A stretch of DNA of 64,000 nucleotides from an uncultured Bacillota bacterium (GTDB lineage: Bacteria; Bacillota; Clostridia; Lachnospirales; Lachnospiraceae), in the NCBI GenBank assembly GCA_949291945.1, contig CASEXH010000016.1:62001-126000 (forward strand). Direction: 5' to 3'. This document shows positions 40,268-62,017 of the stretch, one piece after another. Both the position numbers and the translations under genes were made by a program. A model generated the notes under the pieces. It saw nothing but the letters and a program-made list of their open reading frames with translations. It had not been told where the DNA came from and searched no databases. Every line of letters starts with the position of its first letter. The stretch's first letter is position 1.

Positions 40268-41104
40268 TTAAACACCGGGGCCATTCAAAAAACTCTGGAG
40301 TTGAAAAAGTCCCCATCCCTGAAGATTGTGAGGATAGCCCAAATCTTTTGCCGTAGCTCTCAACCTTTTTTTGATATCCAGATTTGTAAGCTGAGGATCT
40401 TTTTCCAGGAGCAGCGCAATCCCTCCCGAGACAAGGGGCGTAGACATGGAAGTGCCGCTTTTTCTGGTATAAGGACAAGAACCCTTTTTGTTCGAGCAGG
40501 AAATGATCTCGTTTCCCGGAGCCACAATATCCGGTTTACTGACACAGTCTCTGGTGGGTCCTCTTCCGGAAATCCCCTGGTTTCGCACCAGCATATCGGA
40601 AGACCCTACGGTAATGATCTTCCGGCTGCTGCCCGGAGCTGTAATGCTGCCCCTTCCCGGTCCCATATTTCCTGCTGCTGCCACTACCACCAAACCTCTG
40701 TCCCAGGCTTCCTCTACCGCTTCTATCAGGTCTTCATGGCCTTCCCTCTGAGTGGTCCCCACAGAGATATTTACCACACGGATATGATACCGGTTCATAT
40801 TTTCTTCGATCCATTTCAAAGCCTGAATCACTTTCTCTTTATTACCGTTTCCTTTCTCATCCAGGACCTTAATGGGGATCAGGCCGCAGCCGAAAGCCGT
40901 CCCCCGGTATTTCCCCCCGGAGGCAGCTCCGTCTCCCCCCAGTATTCCCAGCACATGGGTACCGTGTCCATTGTCATCATAGGCCTGTTCTCTCCCATGT
41001 ATATAGTCCCGAAAGGCCCAGATCCGGTTTTCAAAATCCATATGAGGAAAGGCACCTGTATCCAGAACAGCCACCCCGATTCCTTTTCCGCTTAATTCTT
41101 TCAT
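40268..41104 (-). CDS. Subtilisin-like serine protease (S8), compact
   Basis: The 278-residue protein is a minimal subtilase with an intact triad: Asp in VAVLDTGAFPHMDF, His in NGHGTHVLGILGG, Ser in KSGTSMSTPLVSGG. It has no signal peptide or prodomain of its own. The start ATG overlaps the stop of a 27-codon upstream frame (41101-41184) by four bases. Compact cytoplasmic subtilases are found in Clostridia; functions range from intracellular protein turnover to spore roles. It is divergent from a second, larger subtilase starting at 41233. Confidence 0.9.
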   Translation of the reverse strand: MKELSGKGIGVAVLDTGAFPHMDFENRIWAFRDYIHGREQAYDDNGHGTHVLGILGGDGAASGGKYRGTAFGCGLIPIKVLDEKGNGNKEKVIQALKWIEENMNRYHIRVVNISVGTTQREGHEDLIEAVEEAWDRGLVVVAAAGNMGPGRGSITAPGSSRKIITVGSSDMLVRNQGISGRGPTRDCVSKPDIVAPGNEIISCSNKKGSCPYTRKSGTSMSTPLVSGGIALLLEKDPQLTNLDIKKRLRATAKDLGYPHNLQGWGLFQLQSFLNGPGV

Positions 41105-41184
41105 GACTTTCCACAGATGCGCCTTGCTTTTTCTATATCATATTCCTCAGAAATCCCTCTGGTTCCAGTCAAGATTGCTCTCAT
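41101..41184 (-). CDS. Possible 27-residue upstream peptide
   Basis: The frame starts ATG at 41184, reads MRAILTGTRGISEEYDIEKA and ends CGKS, with its stop overlapping the protease start (ATGA). The ribosome site is weak. It could be a leader for translational coupling or a remnant of a prodomain. No family is recognised. Confidence 0.35.
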   Translation of the reverse strand: MRAILTGTRGISEEYDIEKARRICGKS

Positions 41185-41232
41185 CGCTTCATAGACTGAA
41201 AAGAATAAAAATCCAATATTATGGGAGTTCTT

Positions 41233-42927
41233 ATGCCGTCTATACGAGAAATGATTCTTTCTGAAGACTATGCAGACATTATTGTTCCCTACTTTCCATG
41301 CTTTCTCAACCGGTACAGGGATCAGGGTGCACAGGTCTTTAACGATTACTATGGAATGATCCACTACCCTCTTTCTCCTCAGACCTTTGCCGCCTTTTTT
41401 GAGGAAGGATTTTTTTACACTACCGTGCCCAAGCTTTACACCCTTTTGGACACTGTAAATCTGGATGCGGCGGGAATTACCCAGGTTCAGAACCAGCCGG
41501 TACTGGACCTTACAGGTCAGAATATCATCCTGGGATTTATTGATACAGGGATTGACTACACTCACCCGGCATTTCGAAGAAGTGACGGGAGCAGTCGGAT
41601 CTGCGGACTCTGGGACCAGACCATCCAGACCGGAACTGCACCCTATGACCTGGAATATGGGAGCGCCTACACGCAGAAAGAGATCGATCAGGCCCTGGAG
41701 CAGGAAGATCCTTTTTCTTTGATCCCCAGCCGTGATGAGATCGGCCATGGCACCGCCCTTGCCGGAATTGCCGCCGGAACCACTCTCCCTGAAAATGATT
41801 TTAACGGAGCTGCTCCTCAGGCGATGATCGCCGCAGTTAAGCTCAAGCCAGCCAAGGAATATCTGAAAACTCTTTTTTACGTCACGGGAGACGCCCCTGC
41901 TTATCAGATGACCGATATTATGGCAGGTATTCGCTATCTTCTCCACCTCTCGGGAGAACTGGTAAAACCTCTGGTGATCTGTCTGGGCCTTGGCACCAAC
42001 CAGGGAGACCATTCCGGGGATTCTCCTCTGGACTCCATGCTGTCTATCACAAATCAGTTCCGGGGTTTTATTGGTGTATCCGCCGCAGGAAACGAAGCTG
42101 GAAGAGCACATCACTACTATGGCACTGCGTTAAATTCTGCTGAATACAATGTTGTAGAGATCCTGGTAAAAGAGGGTACCAGGGGTTTTTGTGCTGAACT
42201 ATGGGGACAGCCTCCGGAAGTCTATGCCGTAGGCTTTGAGTCTCCCTTGGGAGAAGTGATCCAGAAGATTCCTCCCAGGCTGAGTTACACGGAAAATATC
42301 TCCTTTATCCTGGAAAACACCAGGATTTTTATCAGTTCTGAGATCATCCAGACTGTTTCCGGAAGCCAGCTGATTTTTATGCGTTTTACGGATCCCACTC
42401 CCGGCTCCTGGAAAATACGGGTGTATACCGGAGATTATAACAGCGGCAGTTATCATATCTGGCTGCCGGTCACAGGCTTTTCTGATCCAGATGTTATCTT
42501 CCTGGCACCCAATCCTGACACTACTATCACTTCTCCCGGCAACTCTGCTTCTGTGATCACTACCGGAGCCTATAATGCCTATAATAGCAGTCTCTATCTG
42601 AATTCCAGCCGGGGTTATACCAGAACCGGACAGATCAAACCGGATATCGCAGCACCGGGCGTCAATGTTTTCGCCCCTGCTCCCCGAAACCGTTATACTG
42701 CCATTACCGGTACTTCCGCAGCGGCGGCCATCACTGCAGGGGCAAGTGCTCTGATCATGGAATGGGGCATGAACCAGACGCCTTCCAGGATCTTCAATAA
42801 TACCGAAATGAAAAATCTCTTGATCCGAGGGGCCAACAGGCGTGGAGATAACCTGTATCCAAACCGGGAGTGGGGCTATGGCACCCTGGATGTATATCAG
42901 GTATTTGCCGTTCTTTCTTCTCCATAA
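41233..42927 (+). CDS. Csp-like subtilisin family protease (S8)
   Basis: The start is the ATG at 41233 after GGGAG; the ATG at 41221 lacks a site. The 564-residue protein resembles the Csp proteases of spore-forming Clostridia: an N-terminal domain of about 95 residues, the catalytic domain with Asp (ILGFIDTGIDYTHPAF, near residue 104), His (EIGHGTALAGIAAG) and Ser (ITGTSAAAAITAGA). A beta-rich insertion of about 130 residues (SPLGEVIQKI to YHIWLPVTGFSDPD) fits the jelly-roll insert of Csp. All three catalytic residues are present, unlike the inactive CspA/CspC of some species. A Cys-rich gene follows 69 bases later. Confidence 0.9.
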   Translation: MPSIREMILSEDYADIIVPYFPCFLNRYRDQGAQVFNDYYGMIHYPLSPQTFAAFFEEGFFYTTVPKLYTLLDTVNLDAAGITQVQNQPVLDLTGQNIILGFIDTGIDYTHPAFRRSDGSSRICGLWDQTIQTGTAPYDLEYGSAYTQKEIDQALEQEDPFSLIPSRDEIGHGTALAGIAAGTTLPENDFNGAAPQAMIAAVKLKPAKEYLKTLFYVTGDAPAYQMTDIMAGIRYLLHLSGELVKPLVICLGLGTNQGDHSGDSPLDSMLSITNQFRGFIGVSAAGNEAGRAHHYYGTALNSAEYNVVEILVKEGTRGFCAELWGQPPEVYAVGFESPLGEVIQKIPPRLSYTENISFILENTRIFISSEIIQTVSGSQLIFMRFTDPTPGSWKIRVYTGDYNSGSYHIWLPVTGFSDPDVIFLAPNPDTTITSPGNSASVITTGAYNAYNSSLYLNSSRGYTRTGQIKPDIAAPGVNVFAPAPRNRYTAITGTSAAAAITAGASALIMEWGMNQTPSRIFNNTEMKNLLIRGANRRGDNLYPNREWGYGTLDVYQVFAVLSSP

Positions 42928-42996
42928 ATTTATTGCACCCATTTCCCTCTGGTGCATAGTATGTAAGTGTAATCAAGATTTTTGGAGGAACGATTC

Positions 42997-43692: not shown

Positions 43693-45390
43693 TCAGGATT
43701 CCCGAAGTTTTTTCCAGATTCCTGTCTCTTCAAAAGCTTCTACGGATTTTTTGGCCTCTTTTACCAGGCCTTCTTTATATCCTGTCATTTCCAGAAGACG
43801 AATGGCATTTCTGGTAGTCACCCTTCCCTTTTTCAGCAGATAATTAAAGACAACCTCATGCTCCTTTACTTCTTCCTCAAAATGATAATTCTCATAAAGA
43901 TCCTCCAGGATATAAGACAACTCAATATCATGGGTAGCTGCAAAAGGCAGCACCTGATCCCGTTTCAAATCTGCCAGTATCTGAGAAGAAGCTCCGATCC
44001 GCTCAATCGTATTGGTTCCCCGAAGGACTTCATCTATGATACACAGCAGGCATCCCTTTTTTTCCGCCTCATCTAAAATTCTTTTCAGGGAGCGTATTTC
44101 TACAATAAAATAACTCTCGCCGCTTTCCAGATCATCCCTGAGGGCCATGGAAGTCATCACCTTAAAATAAGGAGCATGGTAAGAGGAGGCTGTAACGGTA
44201 TAGACAGTCTGGGCCAGGATGCTGTTCACTGCTATATTCTTCAGAAAAGTGGACTTTCCTGAAGCATTGGAGCCGGTTACCAGAATGCCGGTCCCGGCCT
44301 CTATGCTGTTGGCCACAGGTTGGGAAAGCAGGGGGTGGTACAAGTCTTTCACCCTCAGATACGCTCTCTCCCCCTTTTCCAGTTCCGGCAGGCTGTAATA
44401 GGGCAGGCTTTCTCTGAAAGAAGCAATGGAGATCATGGCGTCCAGATATCCGAATATCTTTATCAATCCCACGATTTCTCCCTGATACTTCTGCATGGCT
44501 TTCATCATGGCGGAAAATTTGATCAGGTCAATGTGGGTCAGCATACGGATATAATCCATGACAAGCCCTTCCAGCCCTCCCCCCGTACTGCTCTGTTCCA
44601 GTACCAGAAAAGAGCCTTTCTGAAAAGTACGGAGACTTTCCCGGTACTTCTTCCCCTCTTCTCTATAGGGATCCAGCTCCGGGATCTTTAATTTTTCCAG
44701 TTCTTTCTGGGCCTCCAGAAGCTGGATCACACAGCGGAAGCTGTTCAGATACAGATCAATGTCCTGCTTCTGCATAAAATACGTGATAATATTCAGAATG
44801 CAGACACCCAGGAAGCAAAAGATCCCCGGCGAAGGCATAACTGCAAAAAACAAAAGAGAAAGAAAAAAGGCTGCGCACATAGCGATCTGTAATCCTTTGC
44901 CCTGGATCTCAACCTCTTTTGTCACACTGACCGCCTCATAGACACTCACATTCCCCGGTTTCCGGATTCCCGCAAGAAGAGCCTGTATCCGATGTCTTTC
45001 CTCTTTTTTGCCTGCAAAAAATTCCAGGAGTCTCTGTCTTTCTTTCAGTTCCTCTTCCCGGAAAACCGGTTTTCGCAAAAGCTCATAGAGACACTCATCC
45101 CCTGCCGGAGAAACACTCTGGTTAATCAGAGCATAAATCCGGTCCATGTCCAGATCATTCCAGGTAATATCGTCAATATAAAATCCTTCTTTTTCTCTCT
45201 GTCGAAAAAACTGGGAAATGTGATCCAGCTCCTCATAGCTGTATTCCCGCTGGGGAATCTTTCCCCAGGAGGCTATCATCCTTTCCAGGAAAAGCTTTCT
45301 TCTTTTTCTGGCTTCATAAAAATTCAAAAGTCCTGCTCCGATCAGGAACAGGAGGATCACTCCCAGTCCGATCACCGTATCGTTATACAT
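43693..45390 (-). CDS. MutS-family ATPase with membrane anchor
   Basis: The 565-residue protein begins with a membrane helix (VIGLGVILLFLIGAGLLNF) and has a second hydrophobic hairpin near residues 175-215. The core is a MutS domain III/V region with Walker A (VTGSNASGKSTFLKNIA) and Walker B (CLLCIIDEVLRGTNTIE), followed by the conserved FAATHDIELSYIL. It lacks the mismatch-recognition domain of MutS. Such membrane MutS-like proteins of unknown function are common in Clostridia. It lies seven bases after hemL, so it may be co-transcribed with the tetrapyrrole genes without sharing their function. Confidence 0.85.
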   Translation of the reverse strand: MYNDTVIGLGVILLFLIGAGLLNFYEARKRRKLFLERMIASWGKIPQREYSYEELDHISQFFRQREKEGFYIDDITWNDLDMDRIYALINQSVSPAGDECLYELLRKPVFREEELKERQRLLEFFAGKKEERHRIQALLAGIRKPGNVSVYEAVSVTKEVEIQGKGLQIAMCAAFFLSLLFFAVMPSPGIFCFLGVCILNIITYFMQKQDIDLYLNSFRCVIQLLEAQKELEKLKIPELDPYREEGKKYRESLRTFQKGSFLVLEQSSTGGGLEGLVMDYIRMLTHIDLIKFSAMMKAMQKYQGEIVGLIKIFGYLDAMISIASFRESLPYYSLPELEKGERAYLRVKDLYHPLLSQPVANSIEAGTGILVTGSNASGKSTFLKNIAVNSILAQTVYTVTASSYHAPYFKVMTSMALRDDLESGESYFIVEIRSLKRILDEAEKKGCLLCIIDEVLRGTNTIERIGASSQILADLKRDQVLPFAATHDIELSYILEDLYENYHFEEEVKEHEVVFNYLLKKGRVTTRNAIRLLEMTGYKEGLVKEAKKSVEAFEETGIWKKLRES

Positions 45391-51994: not shown

Positions 51995-52022
51995 TTGACA
52001 AAATTCCGGGATATGCTACAAT
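51995..52022 (+). promoter_or_regulatory. Promoter of the cobalt transport operon
   Basis: TTGACA (51995-52000) and TACAAT (52017-52022) with a 16-base spacer lie just before the riboswitch, a near-consensus promoter. Confidence 0.75.
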
Positions 52023-52037
52023 AAATCCAGAATTGAA

Positions 52038-52223
52038 TGCACAAAGGTGCCTGCAGTCTCTGCGGGAGAATAGGAAAGCTGAGTGAAAAGCTCACACGGT
52101 CACGCCGCTGTAAGGGTGGAACCGTATTTCTGAAAAGATTTCAACAATCTGCGCCACTGGGAATCTTCCTGGGAAGGCTGAAATACGGTGATGATGCCTG
52201 AGTCAGAAGACCTGCCTTGTGCA
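52038..52223 (+). ncRNA. Cobalamin riboswitch
   Basis: The element has the base-pairing ends TGCACAA/TTGTGCA (52038-52044, 52217-52223), the conserved AGGAAAGCTGAGTGAAA-type segment, CACGCCGCTGTAA, CACTGGGAA, and the B12 box GAGTCAGAAGACCTGCC at 52200-52216. It senses adenosyl- or aquocobalamin and switches off the downstream cobalt import genes when B12 is plentiful. A terminator at 52321-52350 provides the expression platform. Confidence 0.95.
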
Positions 52224-52320
52224 CGAGATTTACACAGGTTACGAACGATGGCCTAGTGTAAGAACAGGTTGGCTCATAGCAGTTCAATTCTATTCGCTAT
52301 ACCTCTTGTTCTTCTGGTAG

Positions 52321-52350
52321 CCTGTGGGGATTTCCCTTCAGGTTTTTTTT
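52321..52350 (+). terminator. Riboswitch expression-platform terminator
   Basis: CCTG/CAGG and GGG/CCC pair across a short loop, followed by eight T's at 52343-52350. An upstream AACAGGTTGGCT could pair with AGCCTG as the antiterminator. The cbiM start lies 44 bases later. Confidence 0.75.
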
Positions 52351-52393
52351 ATTGTCTCTATGACAGGATTTTTACATCAGAAAGGAGAAGAAA

Positions 52394-53149
52394 ATGAGTA
52401 AAAGAAGCAAACTTGAAAAACGTATTCTGGCTTTGGCAGCCGCTTTCGCCCTTACTTTCGGAATTGTTCCCAACGTAAGCGCCATGCACATTATGGAGGG
52501 CTATCTGCCCGGAGGATTCTGTATTGCCTGGGGCGTCCTGTGCCTGCCTTTTTTGATCGCAGGATTTTTGTCCATAAAGAAAACCCTGAATGAACACCGG
52601 AACTTGATCACCCTTCTGGCTATGTCCGGCGCCTTTGTCTTTGTGATCTCTTCCCTGAAGATCCCTTCTATAACAGGAAGCTGTTCCCATATGACAGGAA
52701 CCGGGCTGGGGGCCATTTTATTCGGTCCTTCCGCCGTTTCCATCCTGGGGCTGATCGTCCTTTTGTTCCAGGCCATCCTGCTGGGTCACGGAGGCCTTAC
52801 CACCATCGGCGCCAACACCTTTTCCATGGCTATCGCCGGTCCCTTTGTCACCTACGGGATCTACACCTTGTGCAAAAAGGTCGGAGTAAACAAACGGGTA
52901 GGGATCTTTCTTGCCGCCTCTTTAGGAGATCTGTTCACCTACTGTGTAACAGCCTTCCAGATGGCTCCGGCTCATCATGCAGAGTCTACCATCGGGGGCG
53001 CTTTTGTAAAATTCCTGGCGGTTTTTGCTCCTACCCAGGTGCCTCTGGCCATTATTGAAGGGATTATCACTGTGCTGATCGTTATGGGTCTGGAGACCTA
53101 TGCAAAACCGGAACTGCGAGCTATCGGATTTATAAAGGAGGCAAAGTGA
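52394..53149 (+). CDS. cbiM: Cobalt ECF transporter substrate-binding membrane subunit CbiM
   Basis: The 251-residue protein has a signal peptide of about 30 residues (MSKRSKLEKRILALAAAFAL, cut after NVSA) so that the mature protein begins with MHIMEGYLP, the metal-binding N terminus of CbiM/NikM in which the second residue His and the amino group bind Co2+. Seven or so hydrophobic helices follow, with the conserved GSCSHMTGTGLGAILFGP. It is the first gene of the riboswitch-controlled operon cbiMNQ-OK. Confidence 0.95.
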   Translation: MSKRSKLEKRILALAAAFALTFGIVPNVSAMHIMEGYLPGGFCIAWGVLCLPFLIAGFLSIKKTLNEHRNLITLLAMSGAFVFVISSLKIPSITGSCSHMTGTGLGAILFGPSAVSILGLIVLLFQAILLGHGGLTTIGANTFSMAIAGPFVTYGIYTLCKKVGVNKRVGIFLAASLGDLFTYCVTAFQMAPAHHAESTIGGAFVKFLAVFAPTQVPLAIIEGIITVLIVMGLETYAKPELRAIGFIKEAK

Positions 53150-53150
53150 T

Positions 53151-53474
53151 ATGAAAAAGAAAGTTATTTTAGGAATCCTTGTGATCTTTTTAATCGCCCT
53201 GGTTCCTCTCTTTGTCTTAAAAGATGCGGAATTCGGAGGCTCTGACGATGCAGGCAGCCAGGTGGTGGAGGAAATGGATCCTTCCTATGAACCCTGGGCC
53301 ACTCCGATTCTGGAAACTATTATCGGCGGAGAACTTCCGGGAGAAGTGGAAAGTCTCTTCTTCTGTATCCAGACCGGTATCGGTGTAGGGATCATCGCCT
53401 TTATCATGGGCCGGTTCGTGGAACGGAGGAAATGGATGAATAAGGAAGGAGATTCCCGTGATTACCATAGATAA
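53151..53474 (+). CDS. cbiN: Cobalt transport protein CbiN
   Basis: The 107-residue protein has two membrane helices (VILGILVIFLIALVPLFVLK and FFCIQTGIGVGIIAFIMGRF) flanking an extracytoplasmic loop (DDAGSQVVEEMDPSYEPWAT). CbiN assists CbiM in metal loading. It overlaps the next gene by 17 bases. Confidence 0.9.
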   Translation: MKKKVILGILVIFLIALVPLFVLKDAEFGGSDDAGSQVVEEMDPSYEPWATPILETIIGGELPGEVESLFFCIQTGIGVGIIAFIMGRFVERRKWMNKEGDSRDYHR

Positions 53475-54234
53475 GCTCTGCTATCATTCAAAGCTTCGCT
53501 ATGAAAATGCCGGTGAAAAATTTGCCTTTGCAGTGATTACACTTTGTATCTGTGTAATGAGTCGTTCCATTGCAGTGGCATGTATTGTTTTAGCTGTGAC
53601 AGGGATTCTGGCCGTTTGGAAAGGCGGGATCCCTGTTTCCCGTTATCTGCGGTTTCTCACAGTGCCCCTGGCATTTTTATTTCTGAGTACCATCGCCATT
53701 ATGTTCAATATCAAAAAAGTGCCTCTGGATCTTTTTGCCATACCGGTAGGAAACTGGTATATAACCGCCAGTACAGACTCTTTTTTCTATGCCCTGCAGC
53801 TGATCCTGACTGCCCTGGCAGCTGTATCCTGCCTGTACTTTCTGTCTTTTACCACGCCTATGCCGGATATCCTGGAAGTTCTGAGAAAGCTTCACTGTCC
53901 GGGACTTCTCATTGAACTGATGCTTTTGATCTACCGTTTTATTTTTATCCTTCTGGACACGGCTTCTGCCATCTCCACTTCCCAGAACTGCCGTCTTGGA
54001 AACAAAGATTACCGGACTTCTCTAAAGTCTTTTGGGCTCTTGGGGTCTGTACTTATGATACGGGCCATAACCCGCTCCAACAAGCTCTATGACGCCATGG
54101 AAGCCAGATGCTATGACGGCAGGATCCGGGTATTGTCGGAGAATCAGCCTCCCAGGAAAAAGATCATCGCCGCTATTGCAGTCTTTGATACTGCACTCTT
54201 TATTTTTGCTATATGGAGGAAGTTTTTCTCATGA
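53458..54234 (+). CDS. cbiQ: Cobalt ECF transporter membrane subunit CbiQ
   Basis: The start is GTG at 53458 after AAGGAAGGAG. The 258-residue protein is the transmembrane coupling subunit with about five helices and the signature MEARCYDGRI, which belongs to the conserved A-R-G-like coupling helices contacting the ATPase. The stop overlaps the next ATG. It links CbiM/N with the CbiO ATPase. Confidence 0.93.
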   Translation: MITIDKLCYHSKLRYENAGEKFAFAVITLCICVMSRSIAVACIVLAVTGILAVWKGGIPVSRYLRFLTVPLAFLFLSTIAIMFNIKKVPLDLFAIPVGNWYITASTDSFFYALQLILTALAAVSCLYFLSFTTPMPDILEVLRKLHCPGLLIELMLLIYRFIFILLDTASAISTSQNCRLGNKDYRTSLKSFGLLGSVLMIRAITRSNKLYDAMEARCYDGRIRVLSENQPPRKKIIAAIAVFDTALFIFAIWRKFFS

Positions 54235-55895
54235 ATGATGAAATGATTTTAAAAGCGGATAACCTGTACTATTCCTATGATGATGACAACAGCCACTCTT
54301 TAAACGGCCTCTTTCTGGAGGTCAAAAAGGGCCAGAAAGTCGCCTTTATGGGGGCAAACGGCAGCGGGAAATCCACCTTCTTTCTCTGCTGCACCGGAAT
54401 CTTAAAGCCCCAGAAAGGCCAGCTGTTTTTTAAAGGAAAGCCCTATGCTTACGATAAACAGAGTCTCCTCGAGCTGAGGAGCAAGGTAGGCATTGTTTTC
54501 CAGGATCCGGACAATCAGCTTTTCTCTGCCAGTGTTTATCAGGAAATCTCCTTCGGCATCCTGAATCTGGGGGTTGCCCCGGAAGAGGCCAAAAAAGAGG
54601 TGGAGAAAGTCATTGATTATCTGGAGATCACCCCTTTCCGCCATAAACCTACCCATGCTCTGAGCGGAGGTCAGAAGAAGCAGGTTTCCATTGCAGATAT
54701 CCTGGTCATGCATCCGGATATCATTATCCTGGACGAGCCGGCAGCGGCCCTGGATCCAAAGCATACCCAGATGGTAAACCACATTGTAGATCAGATGACA
54801 GAGGCGGGAATCACCGTTCTCATGGCTACCCACGATGTTGATTACGCCTATGAGTGGGCAGATGAAGTCATCCTTTTCCATGAAGGAAAAGTCCTGCTCC
54901 ACGGGTCTCCCGCCCAGGTCTTTTCCAATAAACGGGTTCTTGCCCAGACGAACCTGGAGCCCCCTGCAGTATTGGAGCTTTTTGAAAGTCTGTGCAGAAA
55001 AGGGATCCTGAAAGCCTCTCTGGAAATCCCCAGGAATTTAAAAACCCTGGAACAATATATAGAAGAAATAAAATTAAACCCACATTACGGAGGAAAGAAA
55101 CCAGTGACAGCAGAAACAAAGAAAGCCATTCTGGCAGTAAGCTTCGGCACCAGCCACAACGATACCAGAAAAGTGACCATTGACGCCATTGAGAGAGATA
55201 TGCAGGAAGCCTTTCCTGACTACAGTCTCTACCGGGCATGGACCAGCAAAATGATCATCAAAAAGCTGAAAAACCGGGACAATGTCCATGTGTTTACTGT
55301 CCGGGAAGCTATGGAACAGATGAAAAAAGACGGGATCACCGACGTTCTGGTACAACCTACCCATGTGATCAACGGCATCGAAAATGATCTGATGAAGGAG
55401 GACGCCCTGGCTTACCGTGATGATTTTCACTCCATCACCTTCGGGGATCCTCTCCTCACCAGCGCAGAAGACAATCTTGCAGTGATCCAGGCAATTGCCG
55501 ATGAATTTTCTGACCTTGCCCAGGATCAGGTGCTGGTACTTATGGGCCACGGTACCACCCATTATGCCAACTCTATTTACGCTGCCCTGGATTACACCTT
55601 TAAGGACAAAGGCTACAAAAATATTTTCCTTGGCACGGTAGAGGCTTATCCTTCCATGGAAAGCCTGATGCGAATGGTAAAAGAATATAATCCTTCCAAG
55701 GTGGTTCTGGCTCCCTTTATGATCGTAGCCGGAGATCACGCCAAGAACGATATGGCAGGAGATGATCCGGAATCCTGGTACAGCCAGTTTAAAGCCGCCG
55801 GGTTCGAGGTGGAGCCTGTGGTAAAAGGACTGGGCGAATATCCCGGGGTCCGCCGGCTTCTGGTAGATCATTTAAAAGTTGCTGCAGAAATGTAA
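54231..55895 (+). CDS. cbiO-cbiK: CbiO-CbiK fusion: cobalt importer ATPase joined to sirohydrochlorin cobaltochelatase
   Basis: The start at 54231 follows GGAGG. Residues 1-280 are an ECF ATPase: Walker A (GANGSGKSTFF), Q-loop (VFQDPDNQLF), LSGGQKKQVSIA, Walker B (IIILDEPAAAL) and the switch His (ATHDVDYAYEW). After a linker (residues 280-295), residues 296-554 are the anaerobic cobaltochelatase CbiK: ILAVSFGTSHNDTRKVTIDA, the metal-binding His in LMGHGTTHYAN (near 440) and VAGDHAKNDMAG (near 502). CbiK inserts Co2+ into sirohydrochlorin. An internal GGAGG at 55089 and GTG at 55104 could also start a free CbiK. Confidence 0.93.
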   Translation: MNDEMILKADNLYYSYDDDNSHSLNGLFLEVKKGQKVAFMGANGSGKSTFFLCCTGILKPQKGQLFFKGKPYAYDKQSLLELRSKVGIVFQDPDNQLFSASVYQEISFGILNLGVAPEEAKKEVEKVIDYLEITPFRHKPTHALSGGQKKQVSIADILVMHPDIIILDEPAAALDPKHTQMVNHIVDQMTEAGITVLMATHDVDYAYEWADEVILFHEGKVLLHGSPAQVFSNKRVLAQTNLEPPAVLELFESLCRKGILKASLEIPRNLKTLEQYIEEIKLNPHYGGKKPVTAETKKAILAVSFGTSHNDTRKVTIDAIERDMQEAFPDYSLYRAWTSKMIIKKLKNRDNVHVFTVREAMEQMKKDGITDVLVQPTHVINGIENDLMKEDALAYRDDFHSITFGDPLLTSAEDNLAVIQAIADEFSDLAQDQVLVLMGHGTTHYANSIYAALDYTFKDKGYKNIFLGTVEAYPSMESLMRMVKEYNPSKVVLAPFMIVAGDHAKNDMAGDDPESWYSQFKAAGFEVEPVVKGLGEYPGVRRLLVDHLKVAAEM

Positions 55896-59149: not shown

Positions 59150-62017
59150 TTATCTGCCGGATGCGCTGTCCTTTTTATATTTTCTGTATATCAGTGCGCA
59201 CAGACCCAGGAGGATCACTCCAACTGCCGCATCAGCGCCGATCACTGCCTTCTCCCATGGGGGCATTCCTGTATCTACGCCTTCCTCTTCATATACCCAG
59301 CTGTTGACAACTGTATACATCACGTTCTTGCAGGCTTGTCTCATGTACTTCACGGAAGACGCCGCTTCCGGATCCTGTACTACATTGGGGCCCCCTGCAT
59401 AAGTAGAAAGCATGGCGTCTAAGCCGTTAGCCAGGGCTATATCTGCGTTCATGAACCCGTGTCCGTTATTGCGGAAGAAATCTGTCAGACAGAAGCCTTC
59501 AAATCCCCATTCGTCACGGAGTACGGTATTGATGAGGCTGCTGTTCTCTCCGGACCACTTGATGCCGATAAAGCTCCAGGATACCATAACTGCATGGGCG
59601 TCTCCATCCTTTACACAGATTTCAAAAGGTTTTAAATAAATCTCACGCATTGCCTGCTCGTTGGACCATACGCACACCATTTTCGCATTCATCTCATACA
59701 TTGCAAAATGTTTGATATAGGCATATTCTCCATGTTCCGCTGAACCTTTTACTGCTGCGGAGGCGATATAGCCTGACAGAGTCCCGTCTTCTGAAAAATA
59801 CTCATAGTTTCTTGCTCCGAAAGGTGTACGGTGTGTGTTCATTCCCGGCGCATACCATCCGGCAATGTTCATCTCCCTGCATGTCTTCCCCATGATCCCG
59901 CCGTATTCCCGTGCCAGATCCTGATTCCATGTGCAGGCGATCATCGTCTCTGTGGGGAAACCTATAGAGCCTTCACCTGTAAAATTATTATTAACGGACA
60001 TAGGCCCATCTGCATCAATGGTCTGCACCTTTCCTACAGAATCCATAGCCGGCGTCTGGTATCCGGACAGAGCGATCATATTCGTCATATCCTCTACCGT
60101 AAGTTCATCCAGAAGTTCCTCCCAGCGTTCATCATCATAGTCAGCCCCCCGGAGTTCGTAAAGCCGGATCCCGTTATCCGCCCCTGTTGTGGGCATCTCA
60201 TCCTCTTCATTGATGTATGTAGTATAATCAAAGTTGCTGTTCAGATGGTACTGGGCTGCAAGTTCCTCTGACATAATGTCCGATGCCGGAGCGGCAGTAG
60301 CTTCCTCATAATTTGCGAAACCGTCTGCCCTGGAAAGATAAGTCACATTACCGGCTGCATCTGTAAACTGATTTGTGGCTGTGATCTGATCGCTGTCTCT
60401 CTTATTCTCTCCCTCATAGCGGATGGTTTCATCCTGAGTATAGGTCTGCTGATCCAGGACGGTATGGGAATCACTGTTCACAGAGATAACATAGTCTCCC
60501 TGTTCCAGCACATAGCATCCGTCTCCTGACATGTCATAAGAAGCCATATCCTCTGCCTCAAAAGTAACTGTGATGGTCTCAGACGCTCCCGGCTCTAATA
60601 ATCCGGTCTTGTCAAATGTGATCAGATTCGCAGAAGCTTTCTCGATACCTCCGTTTGTATATGGAGGATCGTAATAAACTTCCACCACATCTTTTCCCGC
60701 CGTATCTCCGGTATTTGTAACTGTCACATCAAAGGAAATGCTGCCGTCGCTTAGGGTAAGATCGCTCATTTCCTGGGTAAATGCAGTATAGGACAGGCCA
60801 TAGCCGAATGGATACTGTACTGTGGCGTCATAGTCAATAGCCCCTTCGTCATCTGCTGTTTCATAGTATTTGTATCCCACATAAATACCCTCCACATAAT
60901 TCGTAAAGGAGGGGTAATAAGTCTGAGCCATACCTGCGTTCATACCTTCCACAGCCATATCTTCCATATTGGAATAACGAGTTGCCTCCCAGTTGTTCCA
61001 CCAGGGAGCGGCAGTCATATCATAGATAAAAGTATCCGAGGTTTTTCCGGATGGATTGACTTCCCCGCTTAAAATCTTACCCAGTGCCTCAAATCCCACA
61101 TTTCCCGGTCCCTAGCACCAAAGGGTTGCCCGGATCTGCTCATACTGATCGATAAATCCCAGTTCCATAGGATTAGCCGAATTGTAAAGGAGGATCACAT
61201 TATCAAAATTGCTGCATACCAGATCAACAAGGTCTTCTTCTGTCTGTGACAGCTGCAGGTAATGCTCCCCTGCCTGGAAATCTTCATATCCGTTTGCTGT
61301 GTTGTCGTAAGATGCTTGTGTAACATCACCTGGCATATCGTTGTGTCCTTCCCCTGCCATACGGGAGATCACGAGGACTACTGTATCTGAAAAATCTTTT
61401 GCGCTCTGCAGCAGTTCCTCAGAGTATGCAGATGCCGGTGCTTCTGTCAATGTCCAGTTCTGTGTGGAAAGGGACATTTCCGCACGGTCTGCCGAAAAAT
61501 CATTGTAAAAGTCCACCAGTTCCTGGTTTACCTGAAAACCGGCATCTGTCAAGCCATCAATGATGCTGACTCTTTCGTACAGGTCATTCAGGCCTCCGGA
61601 ACCGGTGCCTCCATAAGCCGGATTCACAGAAGACCAGCCGAAGAGATTGATATTAGACGGCTCACGGATAGGCAGGATGCCATCATTCTCCAAAAGCACC
61701 ATACCTTCTTCTGCAATCTGTCCCGCCACATCCTTCGCTTCTTCCGTTGTCTCATCACTCACTGTCCCGCCCTTCATGGTCAGATCGATCATGGCATACA
61801 TGGGACCGAGGACGATCATATTTACAATGACCACAAGAGACACAAGCATACTCAGAACGGAATATTTTCGGATCATCCGCTTTTTGCTCTTCTTTTTCAC
61901 TTTCATACATACAATCATAATTACGACTGCCGCAATCCACAGAACGCCCAATGCGATCAGATAAGGCTTACATGTCTGCAGAACACCGATCACGTCTTCC
62001 CATTGAATCTCTATCAT
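59150..62017 (-). pseudogene. Membrane-anchored, domain-permuted GH3 with one in-frame TAG
   Basis: From ATG 62017 (GAGGAGG upstream) the frame runs 301 codons to TAG at 61112-61114, then stays open in the same frame to 59150; total 955 residues if read through. Order: two N-terminal helices (YLIALGVLWIAAVVIMIVCM, VSLVVIVNMIVLGPMYAMID), GH3 C domain (EEGMVLLENDGILPI), FnIII, then the catalytic N domain (TVEDMTNMIALSGYQTPAMD) with nucleophile Asp near 845 (CLTDFF), and a C-terminal helix. The TAG falls just before GPGNVGFEALG, a conserved part. Nonsense mutation, assembly error and readthrough are all possible. Confidence 0.75.

Follow-up and report, generated by a model that had tools for sequence, protein, structure and literature searches.

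A CbiO-CbiK fusion gene of Lachnospiraceae as a possible source of both importer-tethered and free cobaltochelatase

Introduction

In the cobalt importer CbiMQO the components occur at a stoichiometry of 1:1:2, with two copies of the ATPase CbiO lying beneath CbiQ and CbiM (PMC7689651). The class II cobaltochelatase CbiK of Salmonella has two histidines that are known cobalt-insertion residues (PMC7689651), and in its free form it is described as obtaining Co(II) at cytosolic availability with no dedicated hand-off (reviewed in PMC7689651). How cells deliver each metal to its proper cofactor is still debated, with CbiK serving as a standard model for supply by cytosolic availability alone.

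Here we describe a gene that joins the two proteins, found in a 64,000-nucleotide stretch of DNA (the window; all positions refer to it) from an uncultured member of the Lachnospiraceae (GCA_949291945.1, contig CASEXH010000016.1). The locus shares its operon members and ATPase motifs with CbiMNQO/CbiMQO systems (CbiO 5x3x, 3gfo); the known CbiO structures lack a C-terminal chelatase domain, whereas the ATPase of the fused protein carries one. With the class II CbiK proteins of Salmonella (1qgo) and Desulfovibrio (CbiK(P), 2xvx) it shares a full-length domain and the equivalents of Glu89, His145 and His207, but here that domain is joined to the C-terminus of a transporter ATPase and is predicted to exist in a second, free form. 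No description of a CbiO-CbiK fusion was found in the open-access literature, a scope that makes this weak evidence of novelty.

The Fused Gene and Its Two Halves

The fused gene occupies positions 54231-55895 (+) as a single uninterrupted frame of 554 codons plus stop, in which a complete CbiO is followed by a complete CbiK, as the first-pass annotation of this DNA had proposed. The open frame around it runs without interruption over 54213-55895 (+), and residues are numbered along this 560-codon frame, counted from the ATG at 54213. That codon was rejected as the start of the gene because it has no Shine-Dalgarno sequence (anti-Shine-Dalgarno duplex +1.4 kcal/mol); the ATG at 54231, with GGAGG at 54215-54219 (+), 11 nt upstream, and a duplex of -9.3 kcal/mol, is preferred. 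The features of the locus are collected in Table 1.

Table 1. Features of the cobalt import and chelatase locus, with their positions in the window
Feature	Position	Strand	Basis and remarks
Sigma-70-like promoter, TTGACA-16-TACAAT, TG before -10	51995..52022	+	Consensus match only, 11/12 positions
Cobalamin riboswitch aptamer (RF00174)	52027..52233	+	98.8 bits (gathering 31.5)
Hairpin followed by eight T, likely riboswitch terminator (expression platform)	52318..52350	+	Sequence reading and fold
cbiM, cobalt ECF S component	52394..53149	+	PF01891 E 5e-53; TIGR00123 above cut-off
cbiN	53151..53474	+	PF02553 E 3e-22
cbiQ, T component, GTG start	53458..54234	+	PF02361 E 1e-43; TIGR02454 above cut-off
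CbiO (ECF ATPase) half	54231..55067	+	Residues 7-285; PF00005/TIGR01166, motifs, Foldseek
ATPase motifs			Walker A GANGSGKST 47-55; Q97 (Q-loop); LSGGQ 150-154; D174-E175 (Walker B); H207 (H-loop)
Inter-domain linker	55068..55121	+	Residues about 286-303; reads as former cbiO tail and former cbiK leader
Internal Shine-Dalgarno GGAGG, Gly-Gly in frame	55089..55093	+	Conserved codons; duplex -9.5 kcal/mol
Internal in-frame start codon GTG (Val298), predicted free-CbiK start	55104..55106	+	10 nt after GGAGG
CbiK (class II sirohydrochlorin cobaltochelatase) half	55122..55886	+	Residues 304-558; PF06180, 1qgo alignment, Foldseek

The ATPase half is matched by Pfam ABC_tran (residues 30-177, E 8e-30) and by the NCBIfam cbiO model TIGR01166 (226 bits, above its cut-off of 211.8). 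The Pfam CbiK match (PF06180; residues 304-558, E 3e-85, 286 bits against a cut-off of 26.2) covers model positions 1-261 of 262 and hence a full-length bilobal class II chelatase domain. NCBIfam full-length equivalog models gave strong matches that all fell under their cut-offs, among them SiroCoChCbiK (NF047852; 265 bits, under a cut-off of 400 that is the naming threshold of one database and not a biochemical criterion). The nearest solved chains by sequence are CbiO 3gfo and 5x3x and Salmonella CbiK 1qgo.

Across 30 aligned fused homologues the ATPase motifs are invariant, A48 nearly so. Alignment to 1qgo places Glu89, His145 and His207 of Salmonella CbiK at E390, H446 and H509, which are likewise invariant in the aligned fused homologues; Glu89 is presumably a metal-site residue alongside the histidines. 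The earlier claim that both halves keep their key residues is borne out by these motifs and residues. The CbiO half is predicted to be a cobalt-uptake ATPase and the CbiK half to insert Co2+ into sirohydrochlorin; the homology of the C-terminal half to CbiK stands, and we infer its exact function from active site and context.

An AlphaFold2 single-chain model built with 30 homologues (mean pLDDT 81.5, pTM 0.53) has two globular halves. In Foldseek comparisons the chelatase half matched 1qgo at TM 0.97 and the ATPase half matched CbiO of CbiMQO (5x3x) at TM 0.86, both by target length, and the fold search recovered just these two known folds. Confidence was low in parts of the ATPase motifs (residues 99-111, 145-156 and 177-180), as may be the case when a subunit is modelled alone. 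The linker is predicted to be coil at modest to low confidence (block confidence about 60-72); because of this, and of the two-domain pTM of 0.53, the arrangement of the domains is not fixed. The first-pass annotation had the chelatase tethered at the cobalt channel and imported Co2+ passing directly into sirohydrochlorin. If so, only the full-length protein would matter, imported Co2+ going straight to the fused chelatase; the conservation of the fusion and the intactness of both active sites agree with this, whereas a coil linker with no fixed domain arrangement speaks against it, and a loose tether is a better fit than a channel.

Operon, Riboswitch and Genome Setting

The fused gene is the last of a riboswitch-led cbiM-cbiN-cbiQ operon, and the promoter-like sequence lies directly upstream of the riboswitch. 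The putative terminator hairpin is absent from a consensus terminator scan, and the fold of 52230-52395 has a z of -3.2. A cobalamin riboswitch is also found upstream in nine of ten related loci tested. Joint control of cobalt import and insertion by a cobalamin riboswitch, a further proposal of the first-pass annotation, is supported by an RF00174 aptamer that lies upstream on the operon strand with an expression platform.

On the opposite strand the window carries hemA, a gene for a CysG N-terminal domain, hemC, cobA-hemD, hemB and hemL, a cluster that should supply precorrin-2 or sirohydrochlorin. CbiD is encoded on another contig of the genome, and the anaerobic pathway is therefore likely to be present there. 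No second CbiK/CbiX chelatase was found in the genome with PF06180 or PF01903.

Several other genes of the window may be recorded here. The heme gene cluster is followed immediately, on its hemL side, by a gene (43693-45390, -) for a 565-residue MutS-like ATPase of which only domain V is clearly matched. A small subtilase (40268-41104, -) matches a type VII secretion mycosin model under its cut-off, and the proteins encoded beside it (41101-42114 and 42199-42957) have no Pfam matches. A GH3-type glycoside hydrolase gene (59150-62017, -) is split by one in-frame TAG at 61112-61114 (...ATLWC*GPGNVGFEALG...) and has an unusual order, its C-terminal GH3 domain standing ahead of the N-terminal one.

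Distribution of the Fusion

Every one of the 20 genus genomes encodes the fusion, with identities of 76-99%. No stop or frameshift lies between the domains in the window, and 19 of the 20 genomes likewise carry the gene as one frame, that of the remaining genome (G018) being split by contig ends. An assembly or sequencing artefact joining two genes would have to account for the same junction in every genus genome and across many further assemblies, some of them complete chromosomes, and has next to no chance of being correct; genus-wide conservation excludes sequencing error as the source of the fusion.

The survey of fusion occurrence proposed in the first-pass annotation found it in many Lachnospiraceae genera. 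Named relatives with the fusion include Blautia hansenii, B. caecimuris, B. schinkii and B. parvula, and it occurs also in Lactonifactor, Robinsoniella, Velocimicrobium and Murimonas. In an evenly sampled set of 397 Lachnospiraceae genomes, 234 had a CbiK match, and at least 16 CbiO-CbiK fusions were found among the CbiK matches listed. In samples of the order (392 genomes) and phylum (398), none of the listed long-frame CbiK matches that were read was a CbiO-CbiK protein outside the family; those seen were other fusions, apparently linked to CbiF, HemC or CbiC, or secreted CbiK-like lipoproteins. As far as the samples reach, the CbiO-CbiK pairing appears to be characteristic of Lachnospiraceae. 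The statement that cbiO and cbiK are normally separate genes holds for most bacteria and needs amending for Lachnospiraceae, where the fusion, found in at least 16 of 397 genomes and throughout a genus, is not unusual.

Two observations from the survey stand apart. In Dorea sp. D27 (L115:6135-7613), whose lineage has the genes overlapping, a CbiO-CbiK fusion has likely arisen independently; its frame lacks the first 56 or so residues of CbiO and with them Walker A. Proteins resembling CbiK and bearing lipoprotein-type signal sequences were met at L061, L144, L201, L226 and L227, in tandem pairs at L144 and L227 and in some cases with long C-terminal extensions; these are possibly surface tetrapyrrole-binding proteins like FetB.

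The Junction and Its Internal Start

In split relatives (e.g., L049, L100, L123, L131 and L134) the stop codon of cbiO is followed by GGAGG, 7-10 nt and the ATG of cbiK. Alignment of the DNA between the halves shows that fused genes keep these elements minus the stop, and the junction is best read as the former spacer between two genes, cbiO and cbiK, brought into translation. Its sequence in the window is TAC GGA GGA AAG AAA CCA GTG, encoding Y-G-G-K-K-P-V. The Shine-Dalgarno phase in fused genes reads GGA-GGN (Gly-Gly), with a spacing to the start of 10 nt or, less often, 7 nt, and linker lengths vary by whole codons only. The internal duplex in the window compares well with those of the true operon starts (-9.0 to -11.7 kcal/mol), and the RNA around the internal start is unstructured, with nothing special in its fold (z 0.16).

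A Shine-Dalgarno sequence with an in-frame start occurs in the linker of 44 of 55 distinct fused homologues, a set from which L115, L117 and L118 were left out. Wherever residue 298 is Met, Val or Leu (44 of 44) its codon is a start codon: ATG in 20, GTG in 16 and TTG in 8. Over these genes as a whole GTG makes up 611 of 2023 Val codons (30%) and TTG 204 of 2836 Leu codons (7%). Matched controls, which take account of common ancestry by setting columns of one sequence set against each other, gave the same picture: among 17 all-Val columns of the 16 Val298 sequences, and among 30 all-Leu columns of the eight Leu298 sequences, residue 298 alone is monomorphic in codon. The preceding Gly293 is encoded by GGA in 44 of the 46 sequences with Gly, and none of the other columns among the 32 for Gly has a codon entropy as low; within the 44 GGA293 sequences it is also the only monomorphic column of 18 all-Gly columns, although that set was chosen on GGA and 44/46 is the fair figure. 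The ATG, GTG and TTG codons at residue 298 have exchanged at least nine times on the tree described below, and Shine-Dalgarno and start are mostly kept or lost jointly (41 both, 9 neither, 5 mixed).

Shine-Dalgarno-like sequences inside genes need not initiate translation, and the same pattern of Shine-Dalgarno and start occurs elsewhere in 21 of these 55 genes, with 31 instances over about 30,000 codons. The linker GGAGG, which sits between the two domains, might instead pause the ribosome so that the ATPase half folds before the chelatase is made, with no initiation taking place; since a pause explains neither the ATG, GTG or TTG 10 nt downstream in 44 of 44 Met, Val or Leu cases nor the joint loss of Shine-Dalgarno and start, it is a very improbable account. 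The internal site is conserved at the nucleotide level beyond what the protein needs, and we read this as probable selection for initiation and not as a relic.

About ten fused homologues have no internal site, which is therefore dispensable in some lineages. Three genomes without an internal start (G289, G040 and G276) have no second CbiK match, so that their fused chelatase probably works; this is favorable to a direct hand-off of cobalt, against which counts the conservation of the linker start beyond protein need in most lineages.

Fused, Dual and Split Lineages

In a maximum-likelihood tree of 78 loci, obtained by a quick search and with 26 open forks, the fused and split states are strongly clustered and require at least six changes; three states (fused with the start, fused without it, and split) require 11. 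On such a tree the direction of gain versus loss of the fusion is not certain. Repeated changes between fused and split genes are to be expected if a working cbiK survives the gain of a stop: a single stop splits a gene with an internal start at no cost in CbiK, which would explain the toggling. That splitting has been repeatedly tolerated is a further difficulty for direct hand-off, which we consider unlikely.

The fusion might also be a tolerated passenger, the product of a near-neutral loss of the stop, with most CbiK made from the internal start and the CbiO-borne chelatase serving only to keep the two in co-production. The selection on the internal site and the six or more fused/split changes would be expected on such an account, which is nonetheless improbable, if less so than a direct hand-off: in the Blautia-like clade 30 of 31 loci are fused despite well-varied synonymous sites, the linker has changed in length only by whole codons, and clades that no longer have the internal start rely on the fused protein.

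Two Fusicatenibacter MAG loci (L117:441-2228 and L118:1385-2980) encode a CbiO-CbiK with a decayed ATPase half, in which the Q-loop segment and the Walker B Glu have been lost (LDLPG for LDEPA) and the signature reads LSDGQ, next to an intact chelatase half (66-67% identical). Fusion to a different ATPase was considered for these loci and rejected, the sequence being that of a decayed CbiO. No cbiMNQ genes were found within the 0.4-1.4 kb of upstream DNA examined, which in L118 holds an apparent transposase, and neither linker has a clear internal start. The fused chelatase thus seems to persist without a working ATPase, and it may be argued that it therefore works when fused and has no need of an active pump half.

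Discussion

A dual-product gene, giving rise to a chelatase loosely tethered to the transporter and to free CbiK, is the explanation that we find somewhat better than evenly probable. The stop between adjacent cbiO and cbiK genes would have been lost and the short cbiK leader would have become a protein linker. Ribosomes starting at 54231 would make the full CbiO-CbiK polypeptide, whose ATPase half would fill the CbiO places, two per complex, of the CbiMNQO cobalt importer, with chelatase domains hanging on flexible tethers at its cytosolic face. Ribosomes starting at the internal site (GGAGG 55089-55093, GTG 55104) would translate the same riboswitch-controlled mRNA into free CbiK, and tethered and soluble chelatase would be supplied in one cobalamin-set dose. 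From sequence and model we infer that the fusion assembles into the importer, that the internal start is used and that proximity to incoming cobalt may be of benefit. The broader proposition, that one gene provides a metal-inserting enzyme both importer-tethered and free through a start in its linker and that lineages move back and forth among the fused, dual and split conditions, stands at about even odds in our judgment.

With two CbiO per importer, each importer could have as many as two chelatase domains suspended beneath it. The case for an obligate coupling of import to insertion is weakened because the conserved ribosome-binding site and start in the linker predict free CbiK from the same gene, and because L117 and L118 keep the chelatase half where the ATPase half has decayed. 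Free Salmonella CbiK takes Co(II) at cytosolic availability (PMC7689651), which also counts against direct hand-off; a benefit of proximity is thus plausible but not required by known chemistry. A natural importer-chelatase fusion with split, dual and fusion-committed relatives offers a direct way to ask if metalation gains from closeness to the importer, and the retained internal start, if used, would show how genes may fuse without loss of the free product.

Other apparent CbiK fusions, their partners named by eye from sequence, are CbiF-CbiK (L223-L225, one family), CbiH-CbiK (L142), HemC-CbiK (L158), CbiK-HemC (L202) and CbiK-CbiC (L205). Like CbiO-CbiK they draw the partner from the same pathway; unlike it, their partners are biosynthetic enzymes and not a transporter subunit. 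In-frame internal starts that yield C-terminal products are known from YscQ/SctQ (PMC4295842) and the Rpn proteins (PMC10327210), in which the shorter product is a piece of a single protein, whereas the short form predicted for CbiO-CbiK is a complete enzyme that relatives encode as a separate gene. Among magnesium chelatase genes a programmed frameshift links two chelatase-related frames, and fused and split forms coexist among relatives (PMC3711429); these belong to another chelatase class and are joined by frameshifting, in contrast to the internal initiation proposed for CbiO-CbiK.
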